Assembly (NCBI RefSeq): GCF_003384725.1
Contig: NZ_QNVV01000012.1
Coordinates: 1 to 64,000 of the forward strand
Direction: 5' to 3'
DNA from: Chryseobacterium pennipullorum
GTDB lineage: Bacteria; Bacteroidota; Bacteroidia; Flavobacteriales; Weeksellaceae
Length of the DNA stretch: 64,000 bases
The position numbers and the translations under genes were made by a program. Positions 31,515 to 43,339 of this stretch are shown here, in pieces. Position 1 is the stretch's first letter; every line of letters begins with the position of its first letter. A model generated the notes under the pieces. The model saw only the letters and a list, made by a program, of their open reading frames with translations. It had not been told where the DNA came from and made no database searches.

Positions 31515-31552
31515 AAACCGGCTTTCAGAATTTTCTGAAAGCCGGTTTTATT
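31515..31552. terminator. Bidirectional terminator, perfect 16-bp stem
   Basis: AAACCGGCTTTCAGAA (31515-31530), a TT loop, and its complement (31533-31548), followed by T-rich sequence. It serves the reductase (plus) and the bacteriocin-like peptide gene (minus). Confidence 0.9.
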
Positions 31553-34010: not shown

Positions 34011-34529
34011 ATGGAACGACAATTATTATCAGAATGCCAGCGTAATGACCGCAATGCCCAGCGGAAGGTGTATGAAAAAATGGCAGGCAGGCTGTACGCT
34101 GTCTGCAGACGTTATCTAAAAAATGACGAAGATATCGAAGAAGTACTAGCCGATACCTTCTACAAAATTTTTACGAAAATCAGTATGCTTCAGAATCCAG
34201 ATACTTTTGAAGCCTGGGCAAGAAAAATTGCAGTCAATGAATGCCTCCAGAAATTAAGGGCGAGCAAAGCTTTATTCATCTCTTTAGAAGAAAACTATAC
34301 CGATGCTCCGGCAGGAACGGCAGAAAGTATTTCTTTTGAGAAAGATATTCTTGATCTGCTGAATTTTCTGCCTGAAGGCTGCAGAGCAATCTTTAATCTC
34401 TTTGCCATTGAAGGATACCCTCATAAGGAAATCGCGGCAATGCTTTCCATAAGCGAAGGAACTTCAAAATCTCAACTCAATTTTGCAAGGAAAAAACTAC
34501 AGGAACTTTTGGTGAATCAGAACATTTAA
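34011..34529 (+). CDS. ECF-type RNA polymerase sigma factor
   Basis: A 172-residue sigma-70 factor of the extracytoplasmic-function type. Region 2 is about residues 10-78 (DIEEVLADTFYKIFTKI, WARKIAVNECLQKL). Region 4 is about 110-165 (LPEGCRAIFNLFAIEGYPHKEIAAMLSISEGTSKSQL). Such factors normally pair with a membrane anti-sigma factor encoded next door. The following gene starts 12 nt downstream and has an anti-sigma-like N-terminus, so the two probably form a signalling pair. Confidence 0.93.
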   Translation: MERQLLSECQRNDRNAQRKVYEKMAGRLYAVCRRYLKNDEDIEEVLADTFYKIFTKISMLQNPDTFEAWARKIAVNECLQKLRASKALFISLEENYTDAPAGTAESISFEKDILDLLNFLPEGCRAIFNLFAIEGYPHKEIAAMLSISEGTSKSQLNFARKKLQELLVNQNI

Positions 34530-34541
34530 ACTTTTACAACA

Positions 34542-36839
34542 ATGGAAAATAATCATATAGATCAACAATTCAACGAAGCCTCTAAGCTTTCAGATGAGCC
34601 AACAGTTTTTCCTGGTTTCGAAAAAGTATGGGAAAAGGTTGAACAAAAGCTGGATACGAAAAAAGAGAAAAAGAAAATAGTTTCTCCGTGGCTGCCTTAC
34701 GGGATAGCCGCAAGCCTTATTATTGGATGTGGAGCCTTTTATTTTATGAACAAAAAAGAGACTGCTGACCTTGTGAATCCGTCAACAGTAATCGCTGAAA
34801 GTAAAACAGCACCAAAAGCGGTTTCTAAAACAGATATTGCAGCAATTGACCGGATAACGAAAGAGAATATTAACAAAGAGAAAAAGAATGCCAAGCCTGC
34901 AATAGAAAAATTGGCCGTAAATTCAACTCCTGTTCCTATTCCAAATCCGGTTTCGGATGTTCCACCGCTTGTCACCGCTCCCTCATCTAGAGGAGATTTG
35001 ACGCCTTCGTCAATTGAACGACATATGGAAACTTCAAGTGGAGTGGTTAAGAATATTGAGGAAGTAGTGGTAGTGGGGTATAAGGCTGTTAGAAGAGAAA
35101 AAGTTATATCAGCCTCCAGTAAGATTTCTTCGAGTGAAGCTTCCTTAGCAAAAGAATTAAGTGGAAGTGTTGCCGGAGTATCAGTGTCCAAACCGGGTAA
35201 AGATATGAAAATAATGATCAGGGGGATGAGTTCTGTTGCAGGGAGTTCAGCAAAACCATTGGTAATTATCAACGGAAAACTTGCCAATATGGAAATCCTG
35301 AAAGCTCTGGACCAGGAACGTATTAAGGAAATTTCTGTGTTAAAAGGCGCTGAGGCCGCTGCAATTTTCGGCAGCAAAGCAAACAATGGTGTAGTGATTA
35401 TAAAAACAAAACGGCTCCGCCGGGCTGAGAAGGTGAAATTCAATGAATTATTGTCAAAAGTTGTTGAGGAACGTGGGAAAGAACCTGTTGAAGAGCTTGA
35501 AATAGAACTTCCTAAGGCAGGACAACTAACAGCTGGAGAGGTGAATGATTTTTCCAAATGGGACTTCTGGAAAGATGTTGCCGTTCCTGAGCTGGACCGT
35601 TACAAAAAGACCTGGAAGTTTTTTCCTGAGAGAAGGGTTTCCGTTCAGTTGGTGAATAAAGATAAAAAACCGGTAATAGGAGAAACAGTAAAGCTTCTGG
35701 ATGATAAGAAAAAGGTGATCTGGGAGGCTGTTTCAGATAATTTAGGAAATGCTGAATTATGGATCAGCCCGATGACCAATGAAAGCTCAGATTCCGGTAA
35801 CTATTATCTGGCAGATGCCTCCGGACAGATGATAAGTTCGAATATCAGAGAATTTAAAAACGGTCAGAATGTACTTATTCTCAATAAATCCTGCCTGCAA
35901 AAACGAAAACTGGATTTGGCCTTTGTGGTGGACGCGACAGGTTCTATGGGAGATGAGATTTCTTATCTGCAGTCTGAGCTGTTGGATGTTCTGAAGAAAG
36001 TGGAAACAAAATTAAAAAATACAGATGTGAGATATGGGTCGGTATTTTACAGGGATCAAGGAGATGAATATGTGACCCGGAAATTTGATTTTTCTCATAA
36101 AGCAGAAGATTTAATAGGCTTCATCAAAAAGCAGAAAGCCGGTGGTGGCGGAGATACCCCGGAGGCTGTTGTGGAAGCCATGCAGGTTTCTATTGATGAG
36201 CTCAAATGGAGCAGTGAAAATTCAACCAAAATTATGTTTTTGATTTTGGATGCGCCACCCCACCAGTCAGAAGAAAACACTAAAAAATTGTATGAGAAAA
36301 TAAAAAGTGCCGCTAAAAAAGGCATTACCATTATCCCACTGGCAGCAAGTGACACCGATAAAGAAACAGAATATCTGATGAGAACGTTTGCGTTGCTTAC
36401 CAACGGTACGTATACTTTCCTGACCAATGACAGTGGAATAGGGAATGATCATATGAAGCCTACAGCATCTTCTTACGAGGTTGAGAAGCTTAACGACCTC
36501 TTGTTAAGGCTGATTCTTCAAAGAGCTACCCTGCCGGAATGCAGCAATGGAATTTCCAATGAAAATCTTAATAAAAAGATGGAAACCGAAATAGACAACC
36601 AGACGAATAACAGGGCCATTGTATTTCCGAATCCAACAAAAGGTCCTATTCAGATCAAAGCAAAAAAGACCATTGATGAACTTTTTGTGTATGACTTAGC
36701 GGGGAAAATTATCATGAGAAAAGAACATTTGAACGAAGGTAAAAACACAATTGATATGACTCCGTATCCACAAGGCATTTACCTGCTTCGGATCCGGTCC
36801 GGTGAAGCCTGGGAAACCTTTAAGATCATCAGAAACTAA
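34542..36839 (+). CDS. Mosaic membrane protein: anti-sigma-like anchor, TonB-plug-like domain, VWA domain, T9SS sorting tail
   Basis: A 765-residue protein. Residues 1-48 are charged and cytosolic-looking with anti-sigma character (GFEKVWEKVEQKLD), and 50-69 form one transmembrane helix. Residues about 170-292 follow the SusC/TonB plug pattern (EEVVVVGYKAV, LSGSVAGVSV, IMIRGMSS, ISVLKGAEAAAIFGSKANNGVVIIKTK) but no barrel follows. A von Willebrand A domain (about 456-655) has the MIDAS motif Asp464-Ala-Thr-Gly-Ser468. The last 75 residues form a type A T9SS sorting domain (FPNPTKGPIQI to FKIIRN). The ECF sigma gene precedes it by 12 nt. An inner-membrane anchor combined with a secretion signal for the outer membrane is paradoxical. 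Confidence 0.85.
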   Translation: MENNHIDQQFNEASKLSDEPTVFPGFEKVWEKVEQKLDTKKEKKKIVSPWLPYGIAASLIIGCGAFYFMNKKETADLVNPSTVIAESKTAPKAVSKTDIAAIDRITKENINKEKKNAKPAIEKLAVNSTPVPIPNPVSDVPPLVTAPSSRGDLTPSSIERHMETSSGVVKNIEEVVVVGYKAVRREKVISASSKISSSEASLAKELSGSVAGVSVSKPGKDMKIMIRGMSSVAGSSAKPLVIINGKLANMEILKALDQERIKEISVLKGAEAAAIFGSKANNGVVIIKTKRLRRAEKVKFNELLSKVVEERGKEPVEELEIELPKAGQLTAGEVNDFSKWDFWKDVAVPELDRYKKTWKFFPERRVSVQLVNKDKKPVIGETVKLLDDKKKVIWEAVSDNLGNAELWISPMTNESSDSGNYYLADASGQMISSNIREFKNGQNVLILNKSCLQKRKLDLAFVVDATGSMGDEISYLQSELLDVLKKVETKLKNTDVRYGSVFYRDQGDEYVTRKFDFSHKAEDLIGFIKKQKAGGGGDTPEAVVEAMQVSIDELKWSSENSTKIMFLILDAPPHQSEENTKKLYEKIKSAAKKGITIIPLAASDTDKETEYLMRTFALLTNGTYTFLTNDSGIGNDHMKPTASSYEVEKLNDLLLRLILQRATLPECSNGISNENLNKKMETEIDNQTNNRAIVFPNPTKGPIQIKAKKTIDELFVYDLAGKIIMRKEHLNEGKNTIDMTPYPQGIYLLRIRSGEAWETFKIIRN

Positions 36840-37032: not shown

Positions 37033-37056
37033 AATTTTCAATAATTATTGAAAATT
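37033..37056. promoter_or_regulatory. 24-bp perfect palindrome, operator 1 of the GbsR/MarR-like regulator
   Basis: The half-site AATTTTCAATAA is followed directly by its exact complement TTATTGAAAATT. The -33 TTG of the regulator promoter (37048-37050) is inside the palindrome, so a bound dimer would block it. A related site (18 of 22 central bases identical) lies at 37639-37660 ahead of the next gene. Confidence 0.75.
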
Positions 37057-37077
37057 CAAAAAATATAATTATATTTG
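37048..37077 (+). promoter_or_regulatory. Promoter of the GbsR/MarR-like regulator
   Basis: TTG (37048-37050), 19-nt spacer, TATATTTG (37070-37077): an excellent Bacteroidota promoter overlapping the operator palindrome. Confidence 0.75.
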
Positions 37078-37100
37078 TAATAGAATTTTAAATCAGATCC

Positions 37101-37604
37101 ATGAAACTTTCAGAAGCAAAAGAAAAATATATTCAAACCTGGGGAACGTTTGCCACCAATTGGGGAATCAACCGGACCATGGCACAGGTACATGCTCTGC
37201 TTCTGGCCAGTGATAAGCCGCTTTCTACCGATGAGGTGATGGACCAACTGGAAGTTTCCAGAGGAAATGCCAATATGAATCTTCGGGCTTTGATCGATTG
37301 GGGAATTGTGAAAAAAGAATTTGTAAAAGGGGACAGAAAAGAATACTTTGTCGCAGAGAAAGATGTCTGGTACCTTTTTAAGCAGATTACCAAAGAACGC
37401 AGAAAAAGAGAAATAGAACCTGTGATTGCTTTTTTAGAAGAGCTCAAGAATATTGAAGATAAAGATTCTGTGGAAGCCCAGGAATTTATTAAGCTGATGG
37501 ATGATTTCAGTTCCGTAACCGGAAAAATCAATAATATCATGGACCTGGCCATAAAGAGTGACGATCACTGGCTGGTGGGAAAGATCACCAACCTGCTAAA
37601 ATAG
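37101..37604 (+). CDS. GbsR/MarR-family winged-helix transcriptional regulator
   Basis: A 167-residue regulator. The winged helix spans about residues 25-90 (MAQVHALLLASDKPLSTDEVMDQLEVSRGNANMNLRALIDWGIVKK), closely resembling GbsR-type proteins, whose Bacillus members control glycine betaine uptake and synthesis. A C-terminal helical region probably dimerises. The palindrome covering its promoter indicates autorepression, and a second copy indicates control of the operon that starts at 37753. A terminator hairpin separates it from that operon. The inducer is unknown. Confidence 0.88.
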   Translation: MKLSEAKEKYIQTWGTFATNWGINRTMAQVHALLLASDKPLSTDEVMDQLEVSRGNANMNLRALIDWGIVKKEFVKGDRKEYFVAEKDVWYLFKQITKERRKREIEPVIAFLEELKNIEDKDSVEAQEFIKLMDDFSSVTGKINNIMDLAIKSDDHWLVGKITNLLK

Positions 37605-37628
37605 AAAAAGGATGAAAATCCTTTTTTA
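37605..37628 (+). terminator. Terminator after the GbsR/MarR-like gene
   Basis: AAAAAGGAT, loop GAAA, ATCCTTTTT with further T: a 9-bp stem starting at the stop codon. It separates the regulator transcript from the following operon. Confidence 0.8.
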
Positions 37629-37638
37629 TTTCAAATGT

Positions 37639-37660
37639 ATTTTCAATTATTTCTGAAAGT
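37639..37660. promoter_or_regulatory. Operator 2, near copy of the regulator palindrome
   Basis: ATTTTCAATTATTTCTGAAAGT-type site (22 nt) matching the central 22 bases of operator 1 at 18 positions. It lies about 92 nt ahead of the operon start, after the terminator. I see no clear -7 element nearby. Confidence 0.65.
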
Positions 37661-37752
37661 TTTAAATTAATAATAATTATGAAAAATTTAATCATTCATT
37701 TATTCCTGATTATTTATTTCGGAAGGAGAGGAACCCATTCATAATAGCCATC

Positions 37753-38118
37753 ATGAAAGAATTTGCCAAATATGACTACTTCATTCAGTTATTCGTTAGC
37801 ATAATAGCTGTTATTACTACAGTTGCCGGATTTCAAACCTGGGGGTTTATGGCTTTTTATGTTATTGTGGGGATTTTCCAATTGATAAGTTTCCTCATAA
37901 GGTTGTTTATAAAGACAAAAAAATCAGTAATGTATGTTGTTTATGGAATTACAATATTACCAGTCTGGAGTTCTATTTTATGTATTTTTCTTTGTAAACA
38001 GAATAATGGCATTACCAATTTCTTGGGATATATTTTAATTGGTGCTCTTATTTATAGCCCAATCATGGCCATATTGTATATTCATGAAACTTACCATCAG
38101 TATAAAAATTTAAAATAA
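37753..38118 (+). CDS. Small polytopic membrane protein, first gene of the GbsR-linked operon
   Basis: A 121-residue protein with four hydrophobic segments (about 10-30, 34-53, 60-82 and 93-113) and no recognised motif. The short hydrophilic C-terminus reads HETYHQYKNLK. The DCC1-like gene starts 6 nt after its stop, so they are co-transcribed. I do not recognise a family. A role in the same envelope process as its neighbours is inferred from position only. Confidence 0.7.
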   Translation: MKEFAKYDYFIQLFVSIIAVITTVAGFQTWGFMAFYVIVGIFQLISFLIRLFIKTKKSVMYVVYGITILPVWSSILCIFLCKQNNGITNFLGYILIGALIYSPIMAILYIHETYHQYKNLK

Positions 38119-38124
38119 CAACCA

Positions 38125-38937
38125 ATGAAAACGCTCAAAAACCACACCCTGCTCTACGACAACGAATGTCCGATGTGTGCAATGTATTCCAAAGGTTTTA
38201 CAAAATGGGGAATGCTGGATGAGAACGGAAGAGAAGCCTTTACGGAAATCTCCATCAAAAATAAAAGCTTGGTTGATTTCCACCGCGCAAAAAACGAGAT
38301 CGCTTTAGTCAATCATACTACCCATGAAGTGGCATACGGATTAGACAGCTTGTTGTTGATTATTGGAAATTCATTTCCGTTATCAGAAAAAATAGCGAGG
38401 ATACCTCCTTTGTATTGGCTGTTTAAAAAGTTATATTCCTTTATTTCCTACAACCGTAAACAGATTATTCCATCAAAAAAAGATCAGACGGAACAATCCT
38501 GCGTTCCCGATTTTAATCTGAAATACAGAATTGGATATATCGCGTTTGTGGCCTTTTTTTCAGCCTACATCTTAAGTTTGTTTTCTACGAAACTTGCCCC
38601 GAATCTGTCTTCCAACTTTTTTAGAGAGTTAGCGGTCTGTTTAGGACAGATTCTTTGGCAGACCATCTTTTTAAAGGCTTATTTAAAAGATAAAATCTGG
38701 GACTATATAGGCAACATGATGACAGTTTCATTCATAGGAACGCTGCTTTTACTTCCTGCTCTGATGACTGATTTTACTTCTGCTTTTTATATGATGTACT
38801 TTGGTGCAGTAGTATTCATTATGTTTCTGGAACATGTAAGAAGATGTAAAATATTAAAACTGAACTGGATACCAACGGTTTCATGGATGCTGTTCAGATT
38901 AACAGCTTTGGCCTGTATCATTTTGATAACCATTTAA
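38125..38937 (+). CDS. DCC1-like thiol-disulfide oxidoreductase family protein with membrane domain
   Basis: A 270-residue protein. The N-terminal thioredoxin-like DCC domain (about 6-115) opens with LLYDNECPMCAMY, giving the redox pair Cys15-Pro-Met-Cys18. The C-terminal half (about 135-270) has four or five hydrophobic helices, so the CxxC domain is tethered to the inner membrane, probably on the cytosolic side. DCC proteins lack an established substrate. The desaturase gene starts 11 nt downstream. A link between thiol chemistry and lipid modification is inferred from context. Confidence 0.82.
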   Translation: MKTLKNHTLLYDNECPMCAMYSKGFTKWGMLDENGREAFTEISIKNKSLVDFHRAKNEIALVNHTTHEVAYGLDSLLLIIGNSFPLSEKIARIPPLYWLFKKLYSFISYNRKQIIPSKKDQTEQSCVPDFNLKYRIGYIAFVAFFSAYILSLFSTKLAPNLSSNFFRELAVCLGQILWQTIFLKAYLKDKIWDYIGNMMTVSFIGTLLLLPALMTDFTSAFYMMYFGAVVFIMFLEHVRRCKILKLNWIPTVSWMLFRLTALACIILITI

Positions 38938-38948
38938 AAATTAGAATC

Positions 38949-39731
38949 ATGAACCATCTTGAACTTACCAAAATTGTGGAGTGGAAAGACCTCAGAAAAC
39001 TTTCTGTAAGTGAAATGCTTATTGAAAATAACATCAGCCTGCCGTGGCTTTTTATTTCCTTATGCTTAGCTTACAATGAATATTACTGGATGGCACTGCC
39101 TTTTTCAGGCTTTTATTTTCTTACAGCACTCAGGCAGGTTCATAATGGCTTTCACAATTCCCTGGGAACAGGAAAATTCCTTACGTGGCTGTCACTGTAC
39201 CTTAATAGTATTACGATGATGGCGTCCATTCATGCTGTAAAATTCAACCATATCAGGCATCATAAGTTTTGCCTTTCTGAAGAAGATTATGAAGGAAAAT
39301 CAGCATCAATGAAATGGTACGAAGCCATCTTATATGGTCCTGTGCATATGTTTCTGATTCATCGGATCACCTTTAAAAAAGCAAATATGAAATACAGGAA
39401 GAATATGGGTCTGGAACTTGTTTCTATTGCTTTTTTGATGGCCATTGTATGGTACTTCCAGATTAATTTTTTGATGTATCATGTGCTTGTCATGATTGCC
39501 GGAGAATTTTTAATGGCCTTTTTTGCCGTCTGGACCGTTCATCACGATACCCATGAAAATCCAAATATAGCAAGAACACAAAGAGGATTCTGGAAAAACA
39601 AGTTGACGTTCAGTATGTTTTATCACATGGAGCATCATCTTTTTCCTGCCGTTCCCACGATTAAGCTTCCGGAACTCGCTGATAGAATAGACAAAACATT
39701 ACCTGAATTGACTAAAAAACAAACTTTTTGA
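38949..39731 (+). CDS. Membrane fatty acid desaturase
   Basis: About 260 residues from the ATG chosen here. The open frame continues 22 codons upstream into the DCC1-like gene, and those codons are not convincing. Three histidine boxes are present: HNGFHN, HIRHHKF and HMEHHLFP, which bind the di-iron centre, with hydrophobic segments between. It would insert a double bond in an acyl chain or related lipid at the inner membrane. Its stop overlaps the TTG start of the next gene (TTGA), indicating coupling. Confidence 0.88.
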   Translation: MNHLELTKIVEWKDLRKLSVSEMLIENNISLPWLFISLCLAYNEYYWMALPFSGFYFLTALRQVHNGFHNSLGTGKFLTWLSLYLNSITMMASIHAVKFNHIRHHKFCLSEEDYEGKSASMKWYEAILYGPVHMFLIHRITFKKANMKYRKNMGLELVSIAFLMAIVWYFQINFLMYHVLVMIAGEFLMAFFAVWTVHHDTHENPNIARTQRGFWKNKLTFSMFYHMEHHLFPAVPTIKLPELADRIDKTLPELTKKQTF

Positions 39732-40204
39732 ATCGTTCTGTAATTTATGTAGAAACCGCGATCAATGCTGATATCCATTGTGTATTTGATTTAGCAAGAG
39801 ATATTGATCTCCATCAGGCTTCCACGTCGCGAACCCACGAAAAAGCCATTGCAGGACGTACCTCCGGCCTCATCGAAGAACATGAAACGGTAACCTGGAG
39901 AGCTAAACATCTGGGAGTGTATCAAACTCTCACTACAAAGATCATCAGTATGGACAAACCCAACCAGTTTACGGATGAAATGCAGAAAGGAGCCTTCAAA
40001 TCGCTTCGTCATCAACATATTTTCAAAGAAATAGGAGGAAAAACGCTGATGATTGACCTCTTTGAATTCGAATCTCCATTGGGAATCATCGGGAAGCTTT
40101 TTAATAAGGTTTTTCTCACCCGGTACCTTAAAGAATTCCTGCTGGAACGGAATGAACTGATCAAAACCACCGCAGAAACCCATTATAAAAATACAATCGT
40201 ATGA
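39728..40204 (+). CDS. SRPBCC (START-like) lipid-binding protein
   Basis: A 158-residue SRPBCC-fold protein. The family pattern begins with VYVETAINADIHCVFDLARDIDLHQAS, then DEMQKGAFKSLRHQHIFKEIGG and a C-terminal helix (FLLERNELIKTTAETHYKN). Members bind hydrophobic ligands in a deep pocket; this group is often labelled 'cell division inhibitor' alongside TIGR01777 proteins. The start is TTG, overlapping the desaturase stop by 4 nt. The stop overlaps the next ATG (ATGA). It may present a lipid to the adjacent enzymes. Confidence 0.83.
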   Translation: MNRSVIYVETAINADIHCVFDLARDIDLHQASTSRTHEKAIAGRTSGLIEEHETVTWRAKHLGVYQTLTTKIISMDKPNQFTDEMQKGAFKSLRHQHIFKEIGGKTLMIDLFEFESPLGIIGKLFNKVFLTRYLKEFLLERNELIKTTAETHYKNTIV

Positions 40205-40905
40205 ACTTTTTAAAAGCAGAATGGCGAAAATTAGCCATCATTAATTACGAGATCAATCCTGAGCTACTATTAAAATATCTGCCTGTAGGGACAGAGCTGG
40301 ATTTTTATAAAGGTAAATGCTATGTCAGCTTAGTTGGCTTTATGTTTTTAAATACAAAATTGATGGGCGTGCCTATTCCATTTCATCGGAATTTCGAAGA
40401 AGTAAACCTTAGATTTTATGTGAAGAAAAAAGAAAATGGCATCTGGAAAAGAGGCGTGGTTTTCATCAAAGAAATTGTCCCCAAACCGGCTTTAAGTTTT
40501 GTGGCTAATGCTGTATATAAAGAAAACTATCATACCTTACCGATGAAAAATACGATCTCTGAGAAGGATGATGAACTGCTCATTAAATATTCCTGGAAGG
40601 ACAAAAGCTGGCATTCGATCAGAATCATTGCCGACTGTAACGCCCAACAAATGGAAGCCGATTCGGAATTTGAATTTATCACTGAACATTATTGGGGCTT
40701 CACCCGGAAGAAGAATATGACTGCTGAATACGAAGTATGCCATCCGAAATGGGATTGCTACCCGGTAAAAGATCACCGGCTGAATATTGATTTCCGTACC
40801 GTATACGGTCACGATTTTGACTGTCTTACTCATCAGAAGCCTATCTCTGTCATGCTGGCGGAAGGATCTGAAATTGAGGTGAAGACAAATAAGTATATTG
40901 CTTAG
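40201..40905 (+). CDS. DUF2071 (YqjF-like) protein
   Basis: A 234-residue protein of the DUF2071 family (Bacillus YqjF). Typical segments are INYEINPELLLKYLPVGTELDFYKGKCYVSLVGFMF near the N-terminus and GVPIPFHRNFEEVNLRFYVKKKENGIWKRGVVFIKE. No signal peptide or membrane helix is seen. The function is not established. ATGA overlap with the SRPBCC gene upstream implies obligate co-translation. The longer TIGR01777 frame would overlap it, but its real start is probably 41 nt downstream. Confidence 0.88.
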   Translation: MNFLKAEWRKLAIINYEINPELLLKYLPVGTELDFYKGKCYVSLVGFMFLNTKLMGVPIPFHRNFEEVNLRFYVKKKENGIWKRGVVFIKEIVPKPALSFVANAVYKENYHTLPMKNTISEKDDELLIKYSWKDKSWHSIRIIADCNAQQMEADSEFEFITEHYWGFTRKKNMTAEYEVCHPKWDCYPVKDHRLNIDFRTVYGHDFDCLTHQKPISVMLAEGSEIEVKTNKYIA

Positions 40906-40945
40906 GAAAACACAGAGGTATGTAAAATTCATAAAGTCTAGAGAA

Positions 40946-41845
40946 ATGAAAATAATTATAGCTGGAGGCACCGGATTTCTCGGTGAAAACCTTGAAAAAT
41001 ACTTTACAGAAAAAGGAAACCGGGTATACATTCTGACCCGGAATCCAAAACGCAGCAATGAGATCTTCTGGGATGTAAAAACGATGGGCGAATGGAAGAA
41101 CAGACTTGAAAATGCTGATGTTCTCATCAATCTTACAGGGAAATCCGTAGACTGCCGTTATCACGAAAAAAACAGACAGGAAATTTATTCATCAAGAATT
41201 GAAAGCACCAATATATTGCAAAAGGCTGTGGATGGCTGTTCTGAAAAACCAAAGGTCTGGTTGAATGCCAGTTCCGCAACCATTTATGTTCATTCTGAAA
41301 AACATCTGAATACTGAAGAAAACGGAATTATCGGGGATGATTTTTCAATGAATATCTGCAAGAGCTGGGAGAAAGAATTTTTTAAGGTAACCCATGATGA
41401 TGTACGCAAAGTCGCATTGAGAACTTCCATTGTTATTGGGAATCATGGAGGTGCTTTTCCGAAGCTCCGGCAGGTTACCCGGTGGGGATTGGGAGGTAAG
41501 CAGGGAAGAGGTAATCAGTGGGTAAGCTGGATTCATATTGATGATTTTTGTAAGGCAGTGGAACTGATCATTGAGAACAAAAATATGACAGGACCCATTA
41601 ATGTAACAGCCCCAAAACCCATCTCCAACGAAGAAATGATGCAAATATTGCGAAAGCAGATGAATATGCCGTTTGGATTGAATGCTCCGGTCTGGCAGCT
41701 GGAACTGGCATCTTTATTCCTGAAAACAGAAACTGAATTATTGCTCAAAAGCCGTCATGTATATCCTGAAAAACTGATCAAAACTGGATTCACTTTTTCC
41801 TTTCCGGATTGGGAGGGTGCAGTTTTTAACCTATTGAAATCCTAA
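40946..41845 (+). CDS. TIGR01777-family SDR oxidoreductase
   Basis: About 299 residues starting at MKIIIAGGTGFLG. The open frame extends 16 codons upstream, but the Met directly before the Rossmann motif is the usual start. The GGTGFLG nucleotide-binding loop, LINLTGKSVDCRYHEKNRQEIYSSRIEST and the later WVSWIHIDDFCKAV are family hallmarks. It is probably an NAD(P)-dependent epimerase or dehydrogenase of unknown substrate. It often travels with SRPBCC proteins, as here. It ends the tight part of the operon. Confidence 0.88.
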   Translation: MKIIIAGGTGFLGENLEKYFTEKGNRVYILTRNPKRSNEIFWDVKTMGEWKNRLENADVLINLTGKSVDCRYHEKNRQEIYSSRIESTNILQKAVDGCSEKPKVWLNASSATIYVHSEKHLNTEENGIIGDDFSMNICKSWEKEFFKVTHDDVRKVALRTSIVIGNHGGAFPKLRQVTRWGLGGKQGRGNQWVSWIHIDDFCKAVELIIENKNMTGPINVTAPKPISNEEMMQILRKQMNMPFGLNAPVWQLELASLFLKTETELLLKSRHVYPEKLIKTGFTFSFPDWEGAVFNLLKS

Positions 41846-41896: not shown

Positions 41897-43339
41897 ATGC
41901 TCATCCGGCCAAAAACAAAAACGCTGTTCTTTTTATCAGTTTTCATAAGTTCGACGCTGCTTTCACAGGCGCACCCTGTTTCCGAAGGCTACCAAAAACC
42001 TACAGATCCACTTGTTGTACAAAATCTGGAAGAATGGCAGGATCTGAAATTCGGATTGTTTATGCACTGGGGGACCTACAGCCAGTGGGGAATTGTAGAA
42101 AGCTGGAGCTTATGTCCCGAGGACGAGTCGTGGACGCAAAGAAAACCTGAACACGGAAAATCTTATGATGAGTATGTAAAGAATTACGAAAACCTTCAGA
42201 CGACATTCAACCCCATACAGTTCAACCCTGAAAAATGGGCAGATGCGGTAAAAAAGGCAGGAATGAAATACATGGTTTTTACCACAAAGCATCACGATGG
42301 TTTTGCAATGTTTGATACCAAACAGTCAGACTATAAAGTGACTTCCCCCAAAACTCCGTTTTCAAAAAATCCGAAGGCAGATGTTACCAAAGAAATCTTC
42401 AATACGTTCAGAAAGGAAGGATTCAGAATCGGCGCTTATTTTTCAAAACCGGATTGGCATTCTGACGATTATTGGTGGTCTTATTTTCCACCTAAAGACA
42501 GAAATGTAAATTATGATCCCCAAAAGTATCCGGATCGATGGAATGCCTTTAAACAATTTACCTTCAACCAGCTGAATGAAATTACCTCCAACTATGGTAA
42601 AATCGATATTTTGTGGCTGGATGGAGGCTGGGTTCGTCCTTTTCATACCATAGATCCCAATGTGGAATGGCAGAGAACTATTAAAGTGGAACAGGATATT
42701 GATATGGATAAGATAGGAGCCATGGCCCGCCGGAATCAGCCGGGAATTATCATTGTAGACCGTACTGTTCCCGGAAAGTGGGAAAATTATGTAACCCCGG
42801 AACAGGCTGTCCCGGAGCACGCCCTTTCTATTCCATGGGAAAGCTGTATGACCATGGGAGACTCCTTTTCTTATGTTCCCGACGATCACTATAAGTCGTC
42901 GCAGAAGATTATTGAAACCCTTGTTAAAATCATTTCAAGGGGCGGAAACTATCTTATGAATATTGCTCCCGGACCCAATGGGGACTATGATGCAGTGGTC
43001 TATGACAGATTAAAGGAAATTTCCGGATGGATGGAAAAAAATCAGTCTGCAGTGTTTGCAACAAGAAGTATAGCGCCTTATCACGTCGGCGATTTTTATT
43101 ATACCCAAAGTAAAGATGGAAATACGGTAAATATCTTTCATCTGGACGAAAAAGCAGAGTATAAGGCGCCGGCAATCCTTTCCGTTCCCATTCCTGAAAA
43201 AGTAAATCCAAAATCTGTACGTGTTCTGGGAGTTCCTGCTAAAGTACAGTGGAAGAAGAGCGGCAATAGCTTGGAGATCAGGATTCTCCAAGACAGGTCT
43301 GCATTACAATATGTTACAGTGATTCAGATAAAGCAATAA
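41897..43339 (+). CDS. GH29 alpha-L-fucosidase
   Basis: About 480 residues from the Met that begins a signal peptide (MLIRPKTKTLFFLSVFIS). The upstream in-frame TTG at 41849 is less likely. FGLFMHWGTYSQWG is the GH29 substrate-binding motif, and the nucleophile is Asp242 in ILWLDGGW. It would cleave alpha-linked fucose from glycans in the periplasm or at the surface. No terminator separates it from the operon ending 51 nt upstream, so it may be partly co-transcribed, yet its role differs. A convergent terminator follows. Confidence 0.92.
   Translation: MLIRPKTKTLFFLSVFISSTLLSQAHPVSEGYQKPTDPLVVQNLEEWQDLKFGLFMHWGTYSQWGIVESWSLCPEDESWTQRKPEHGKSYDEYVKNYENLQTTFNPIQFNPEKWADAVKKAGMKYMVFTTKHHDGFAMFDTKQSDYKVTSPKTPFSKNPKADVTKEIFNTFRKEGFRIGAYFSKPDWHSDDYWWSYFPPKDRNVNYDPQKYPDRWNAFKQFTFNQLNEITSNYGKIDILWLDGGWVRPFHTIDPNVEWQRTIKVEQDIDMDKIGAMARRNQPGIIIVDRTVPGKWENYVTPEQAVPEHALSIPWESCMTMGDSFSYVPDDHYKSSQKIIETLVKIISRGGNYLMNIAPGPNGDYDAVVYDRLKEISGWMEKNQSAVFATRSIAPYHVGDFYYTQSKDGNTVNIFHLDEKAEYKAPAILSVPIPEKVNPKSVRVLGVPAKVQWKKSGNSLEIRILQDRSALQYVTVIQIKQ

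Follow-up and report, generated by a model that had tools for sequence, protein, structure and literature searches.

In Bacillus, two precedents for control by GbsR-type regulators have been described, namely, the occlusion mode of OpcR and the roadblock mode of GbsR (PMC6207618, PMC7396694). A 2018 survey of GbsR-type proteins found that gene neighborhoods gave no consistent picture for Bacteroidetes (PMC6207618). Here, we analyzed a stretch of 64,000 nucleotides from Chryseobacterium pennipullorum (contig NZ_QNVV01000012.1, positions 1 to 64,000; referred to below as the window), in which a GbsR-family regulator gene and a series of membrane-associated genes occupy positions 37033 to 41845. 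The locus resembles the GbsR, OpuAR, and OpcR systems of Bacillus in its regulator family and in having an AT-rich inverted-repeat operator (PMC6207618, PMC7396694). From comparisons of related sequences, we consider it quite probable that the regulator is a dimeric autorepressor acting through two operators, O1 and O2, on variable membrane cassettes. No description of this unit was recognized in a literature search of titles and abstract openings, in which subscription journals and preprints were mostly not covered.

Operator O1 (37033..37056, no strand assigned) is the perfect 24-bp palindrome AATTTTCAATAATTATTGAAAATT, with the core TTTCAATAATTATTGAAA at 37036-37053, and it overlaps the predicted regulator promoter (37048..37077, + strand), whose -33 TTG (37048-37050) lies inside O1 and is separated by 19 bp from the -7 element TATATTTG (37070-37077). 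Promoters of the Bacteroidota primary sigma factor have a TTG about 19 bp before TAnnTTTG, and the regulator promoter has exactly this geometry (TTG-N19-TAnnTTTG). The palindrome had no other match with up to three mismatches in the window and none in 100 dinucleotide shuffles. Genome-wide, matches to the 18-bp pattern TTTCAAWWATTWTTGAAA with at most one mismatch occurred in three places, two of which were O1 and O2. The looser motif TTTCARN6YTGAAA occurred in 15 places, versus 10 for a reversed control, and is therefore not specific by itself within one genome; of six other loose-motif sites viewed there (L128 and L192 to L196), four lay inside called open reading frames (ORFs) and two outside.

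Two sets of loci were compared with the window: a named set of 80, all from Chryseobacterium, representing the best 80 of 160 relatives by regulator similarity, and a distant set of 60 Bacteroidia loci picked from regulator matches, 50 of them class-wide and 10 from the same family. In the 150 nt preceding the regulator, the zone in which O1 was counted, the core TTTCAR-N6-YTGAAA was exact in 79 of the 80 named loci and in 48 of the 60 distant loci (51 when one mismatch was allowed). Among the 48 exact distant loci, in which the invariance of the half-sites is a consequence of selection by exact match, conspicuous features were A at -2 and T at +19, together with a stretch rich in A and an element resembling TAnnTTTG, and information fell to near zero in the far flanks. 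The spacing from YTG to TAnnTTTG in 127 exact-site loci was 19 bp in 95, 18 bp in 12, 20 bp in 8, and 11 bp in 1, and no TAnnTTTG was found after O1 in the other 11. Thus, the perfect palindrome that an earlier, sequence-only reading of the window had placed over the regulator's -33 element was borne out. The composite of operator and promoter was present in 77 of 390 genomes of the class (7 for the reversed control, as counted by us from the table) and in 57 of 60 genomes of the genus (3 for the reversed control). A strict operator scan matched 32 of 247 genomes, versus 3 for the reversed control, and its extra matches without clear meaning were two in G374 and one within a coding region in G241. 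The predicted operator is conserved over many families of one bacterial class.

The background of exact motifs was low, with 0 or 1 in each of 27 bins of 250 bp (-7000 to -250; 98 to 138 loci per bin), except for one bin holding five motifs, which were discounted as operators because all of them fell at a single coding position inside a gene for a von Willebrand A (VWA) domain protein. GC-flanked hairpins such as GGCTTTCAG..CTGAAAGCC (L055, L069, and L075) were likewise rejected as operator mimics that look like terminator hairpins. An operator look-alike in the window, TTTCAGAATTTTCTGAAA at 31523-31540, resembles these GC-flanked palindromes. The overlap of O1 with the -33 element argues for repression by occlusion and for autoregulation; the regulator bound at O1 should exclude RNA polymerase, since the site covers the -33 TTG.

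Operator O2 (37639..37660, no strand assigned) has the core TTTCAATTATTTCTGAAA at 37641-37658, with an ATG 20 nt further on. It had been read as matching 18 of the central 22 bases of the palindrome and as lying between the terminator of the regulator gene and the next gene. The match holds in the sequence and in the repeat pair, and a terminator-like hairpin is present at 37604..37627 on the + strand (-10.2 kcal/mol; z, -3.68), which was not among the results of a consensus terminator scan. O2 was exact at +495 to +760 in 64 of the 80 named loci. In 13 of the other 16, a gene (c16) that by eye resembles a lipoprotein gene is inserted, and the exact O2 follows it at +1234 to +1255. Of the remaining three, L058 had one mismatch, L080 had an exact site at +2477, and the sequence of L069 ended before one could be seen. 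An exact second site was also present at +440 to +1100 in 34 of the 60 distant loci. Among the loci with a site, 66 of the 77 named and 24 of the 35 distant ones had, 11 to 27 nt past it, an ATG that starts an ORF of at least 17 codons. O2 does not repeat the layout of the first promoter: in the 112 loci where this second site was exact, TAnnTTTG never occurred 17 to 20 bp after its YTG. Its location near a start codon and past the hairpin, with no consensus -7 element suitably spaced from it, points to a likely roadblock or to the blocking of a weak promoter; O2 would most likely stop read-through or a weak nearby promoter, with GbsR of B. subtilis as the precedent for a roadblock.

The ATG that follows O2 in the window begins a 21-amino-acid hydrophobic peptide, MKNLIIHLFLIIYFGRRGTHS (37679..37744, + strand; 20 nt after O2 and before the first gene listed earlier), an ORF that the previous gene list from the second site onward had missed. 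Two types of such short peptides, 17 to 29 amino acids long, were exposed by the comparison. The first, MKNLIIHLFLIxYF (17 to 25 amino acids), was encoded in 32 loci with the window included, and one of these (L179) belongs to another genus; the second, MKTLIFKIWMYxTF...KRTRGDFLxL, was encoded in 33. Averaged over pairs of sequences, the differences at the first, second, and third codon positions were 1.91, 0.17, and 4.49 for the first type (14 codons, 23 distinct DNA rows) and 1.60, 0.40, and 3.88 for the second (first 14 codons, 25 rows), where the motif search that defined both sets itself favors conserved residues. The changes were mostly at third positions, which is the pattern of selection on the peptides at the protein level.

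Downstream of O2, the genes form a shuffled cassette array and no fixed pathway. When ORFs of the 80 named loci were called mechanically and clustered, the families present were TIGR01777 (66 loci), SRPBCC (66), DUF2071 (64), DCC (57), small transmembrane (TM) proteins (50), c8 (40), c9 (39), desaturase (15), the UbiE-like c19 (14), and the TM-START family c21 (11). The 60 distant loci contained TIGR01777 (22), the small membrane family c1 (19), DCC (18), the SDR family c4 (8), SRPBCC (8), DUF2071 (7, with 6 more of a remote type), TM-START (6), the methyltransferase c12 (4), and desaturase (3). The order found in the window, i.e., regulator, TM protein, DCC, desaturase, SRPBCC, DUF2071, and TIGR01777, recurred exactly in only 2 of the 80 named loci (L060 and L072). 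The idea of a fixed operon or pathway is therefore not upheld; where conservation across relatives had been proposed as the check, O1 and O2 stood (79 and 64 of the 80 loci) and gene order did not. Since the desaturase is optional, desaturation is not the common denominator. Many loci carried further operators before later modules, counted by the next annotated gene as c8 (38), TM (22), c21 (9), DCC (9), c23 (9), and SRP (4), so that modules seem to travel with control sites of their own. In the distant set, at least one cassette family was present in 48 and absent from 3 of the loci with an operator (up to one mismatch), versus 0 and 9, respectively, of those without (Fisher test, 1.5e-8, with near kin counted separately).

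Operators were also found far from the regulator. In 7 of 60 Chryseobacterium genomes, a second operator-promoter composite lay on another contig or hundreds of kilobases away; in L289, the remote operon encoded DoxX_3, DUF2071, and methyltransferase-domain proteins and a 132-amino-acid protein without a family. A remote DUF2071 relative (E of ≤1e-60) was encoded by exactly those seven genomes. The genome of the window was not among them, and O1 was its sole composite. Elsewhere, remote operators preceded a lone DCC gene (L299), a DCC-TIGR01777 pair (L315), and c1-family small membrane genes, as pairs in L201, L204, L298, and L316 and singly in L311; all of these genes were assigned to the cassette families by BLAST. 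Together with the conservation across families, these trans sites lend good support to the predicted autoregulated GbsR-type unit with two operators proposed in the sequence-only reading.

The regulator itself (37101..37604, + strand; 167 amino acids) was identified by profile and structure matches as a GbsR-family protein of the MarR-type winged-helix group, and it is a conserved and real new branch of this known family. Among solved structures, 1ku9 (Mj223) was the best match of the regulator by profile (3.1e-26) and of its structure model (predicted local distance difference test [pLDDT] score, 90) by Foldseek (5.3e-10; TM-score, 0.57 to 0.62), and the regulator combines the winged helix-turn-helix with the Mj223-like helical dimer domain that characterizes the family. 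Regulator matches were obtained in 50 of 148 genomes of the family (10 of 33 genera; E of ≤1e-10) and in 128 of 395 genomes of the class (71 of 196 genera; E of ≤1e-8). One locus from another family of the class (L131, genome G222) encodes a regulator 79% identical to that of the window, together with cassette genes, and the tree places it with the window's family, which suggests transfer of the unit.

Several observations weigh against so general a model. All 80 named loci come from one genus and were selected by regulator similarity, and the operator-bearing regulators are not one clade but are scattered over several places in the tree (7 changes), whose deep part is unsure because of the very long branches of L189 and L190. 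Nine of the 60 distant regulators had neither the operator nor the cassette families, so the operator rule is not family-wide; L137, L145 (one mismatch), and L169 carried the operator without any of the clustered cassette families. We infer both repression and roadblocking from the positions of the sites. O2 could instead belong to a weak promoter, since five of the six letters of TAnnTTTG were present at 18 bp after O2 in 13 of 77 named loci and also in the window (TAATTATG), where they overlap the ATG of the peptide ORF. The seven remote Chryseobacterium sites may stem from one shared ancestor, and the class search at E of ≤1e-8 detected no regulator in G399, the genome from which L298 comes.

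In the window, all genes of the unit lie on the + strand, with junctions of 148, 6, 11, -4, -4, and 40 nt; those of 6 and 11 nt and the two 4-nt overlaps are as read earlier, and the last, given then as 41 nt, is 40 nt. After the regulator and the peptide ORF comes a 121-amino-acid small membrane protein with no family above the cutoff (37753..38118), followed by a thiol protein of the DCC1-like type whose C-terminal part is hydrophobic (38125..38937; PF04134, 29.8 bits, cutoff of 27.8), in which the DxxCPxC motif is present and D12, C15, and C18 are invariant in 22 sequences. The optional module is a member of the fatty acid desaturase family (38949..39731; PF00487, 64 bits versus 29.7). Fatty acid desaturases share a consensus of histidine boxes, by which HNGFH, HIRHH, and HMEHH were recognized in its translation. 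Next come a SRPBCC/START-like protein with a TTG start (39728..40204), a DUF2071 protein (40201..40905; PF09844, 185.9 versus 27 bits), and a TIGR01777 NAD-dependent oxidoreductase (40946..41845; 293 bits, cutoff of 207). The domain names proposed before thus stand above curated cutoffs for DCC1-like, FA_desaturase, DUF2071, and TIGR01777, whereas the SRPBCC assignment, based on an alignment and PF10604, falls below it (22.4 bits, cutoff of 27.4). Profile searches of solved structures with alignments of the SRPBCC (E of ≤0.1), small membrane, and DCC proteins found no relative.

An AlphaFold2 model of the DUF2071 protein (pLDDT, 91) has a fold like that of acetoacetate decarboxylase (ADC), and the 24 solved chains matching it at E of ≤0.001 were titled ADC, ADC-like, MppR, or aldolase-dehydratase; we take the last two to be members of the ADC superfamily. 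Lys95 was conserved in 25 of the 26 sequences of the alignment, and two divergent types also have a lysine at this position. The predicted fold and the conserved lysine suggest that DUF2071 may be a Schiff-base enzyme with Lys95 as its catalytic residue. Downstream, an alpha-L-fucosidase gene (41897-43339) starts 51 nt past the TIGR01777 stop, and a homolog follows in 53 of the 80 named loci (cluster 5, 53 of 53 members); the gene is perhaps transcribed by read-through from the cassette. Upstream, at 34011-36839, are a gene that we read as sigma-factor-like and then a gene for a 765-amino-acid protein with a TonB plug-like segment, a VWA domain, and a secretion sorting tail; relatives of the two precede the regulator in 28 and 40 of the 80 named loci.

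Taken as a mechanism, autorepression through O1 and O2 would be relieved when a ligand, probably hydrophobic, loosens the repressor, so that the regulator and the variable membrane-associated cassettes are made. The products would include the 17- to 29-amino-acid peptide, small membrane proteins, the DCC-type thiol protein, and START-like proteins, joined by the ADC-like DUF2071 protein, TIGR01777, methyltransferases, and sometimes the desaturase. Judging from these predicted families, modification of a membrane-embedded hydrophobic molecule is a plausible outcome.

As to what that molecule is, modification of a membrane lipid or another hydrophobic metabolite was the idea of the sequence-only reading; induced by membrane stress and with no special place for quinones, it is one that we hold tentatively as a possibility of some weight. 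The desaturase, START-like, and small membrane modules fit it, as do the cyclopropane-synthase-like methyltransferase module c12 in four distant loci and a gene of the desaturase family that lies behind a remote operator (L297). However, no desaturase was found in 65 of the 80 named loci, and no module is universal.

It is possible, if doubtful, that the regulon is instead linked to quinones, in that the repressor would sense menaquinone, another membrane quinone, or their redox state, and the cassettes would modify, repair, or carry quinone-like molecules. In its favor, quinone genes were targets in a few families: the operator preceded mqnE in G259, G185, and G225 (one genus), G295, and G148, with TIGR03700 above the cutoff in G259, G185, G295, and G148; it preceded mqnC in G353, where the mqnC score was just below the cutoff, and in G295; and it preceded the quinone-dependent pyrD (pyrD2) in G381 and nuoF in G353, both above the cutoff. 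In G406, it stood before a cytochrome c and QrcB-like pair resembling quinol:cytochrome c oxidoreductase, with the QrcA and QrcB models below the cutoff. A COQ7-family gene directly followed the regulator in four loci (L209, L210, L211, and L188), three of them with an operator, and the protein of L209 matched PF03232 above the cutoff. Furthermore, the UbiE-like methyltransferase module was present in 14 of the 80 Chryseobacterium loci, and an exact motif lay near mqnE in 4 of 30 sampled regulator-bearing genomes, versus 0 of 22 in which no regulator was detected (two fragments were short); the fifth mqnE case, G225, came to light by way of the motif, outside this sampling. Against this, the quinone category was picked after the matches were seen, three of the five mqnE cases represent one genus, and no exact site was found near mqnE in 26 of the 30 regulator-bearing genomes or in 14 of 15 mqnC fragments. 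No MqnE was found in the genome of the window or in one other member of the genus sampled. Other remote targets do not fit (an alpha/beta hydrolase, a desaturase, a TetR-type gene, and, by eye, penicillin acylase-like and glycosidase-like genes), and several remote sites lie inside coding sequence. The UbiE-like gene falls below NCBIfam cutoffs and is absent from the window, and the COQ7-like relatives in G148, G231, and G264 lacked an exact operator in the surrounding 1.5 kb or so. The quinone link is thus a lead. Our boldest reading, which we regard as unlikely in its full form, extends it to a quinone-responsive branch of GbsR-type regulators in Bacteroidia. In some lineages, the branch would govern menaquinone and quinone genes, with mqnE, mqnC, a COQ7-like gene, pyrD2, and quinol:cytochrome c oxidoreductase as targets; in Flavobacteriales and relatives, it would govern the cassette array, whose peptide-headed cassettes would modify or shield membrane quinones or similar redox lipids.

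Sensing of an osmoprotectant such as choline or betaine, as in GbsR, OpuAR, and CudC, is very improbable. Other GbsR-type proteins are described in PMC6207618 as lacking a feature that is apparently the aromatic cage. CudC (NF047500) was the best NCBIfam match of the regulator, but its score of 64.1 bits is far below the cutoff of 218, and no osmoprotectant gene occurred among the annotated neighbors, although no search was aimed at such genes. Proteobacterial LitR/CarH clusters contain similar gene types. A light- or photolyase-associated set of that kind is barely credible here and was dropped, because one cryptochrome/photolyase-like gene (by eye), located some 2 kb before the regulator in L163, was the sole such neighbor in the 60 distant loci, where as a query it matched only itself, and it had no match in 110 loci.

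A predicted repressor acting through O1 and O2 on variable membrane cassettes would tie several families without a known function, namely, DUF2071, TIGR01777, membrane-segment DCC proteins, and small membrane proteins, into one predicted circuit, and the single operator, the promoter geometry, and the recurring genes together provide a predicted regulon for many Bacteroidetes GbsR-type regulators. The DUF2071 protein shares its predicted fold and conserved lysine with the ADC superfamily, from which it differs in having only 8 to 15% identity. Mj223 (PDB 1ku9) is the closest solved structure to the regulator by sequence and fold but is archaeal. GbsR, OpuAR, and OpcR of Bacillus differ in that their targets are osmoprotectant genes and a choline-binding aromatic cage has been proposed, and the half-sites of the B. 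subtilis GbsR operator are 4 bp apart, unlike those of O1. Cytochrome bd genes are repressed by another GbsR-type protein, CydE (as cited in PMC6207618), which is similar in acting on a respiratory oxidase operon, whereas its reported inducer is sulfate, and it acts in other organisms and on other targets.

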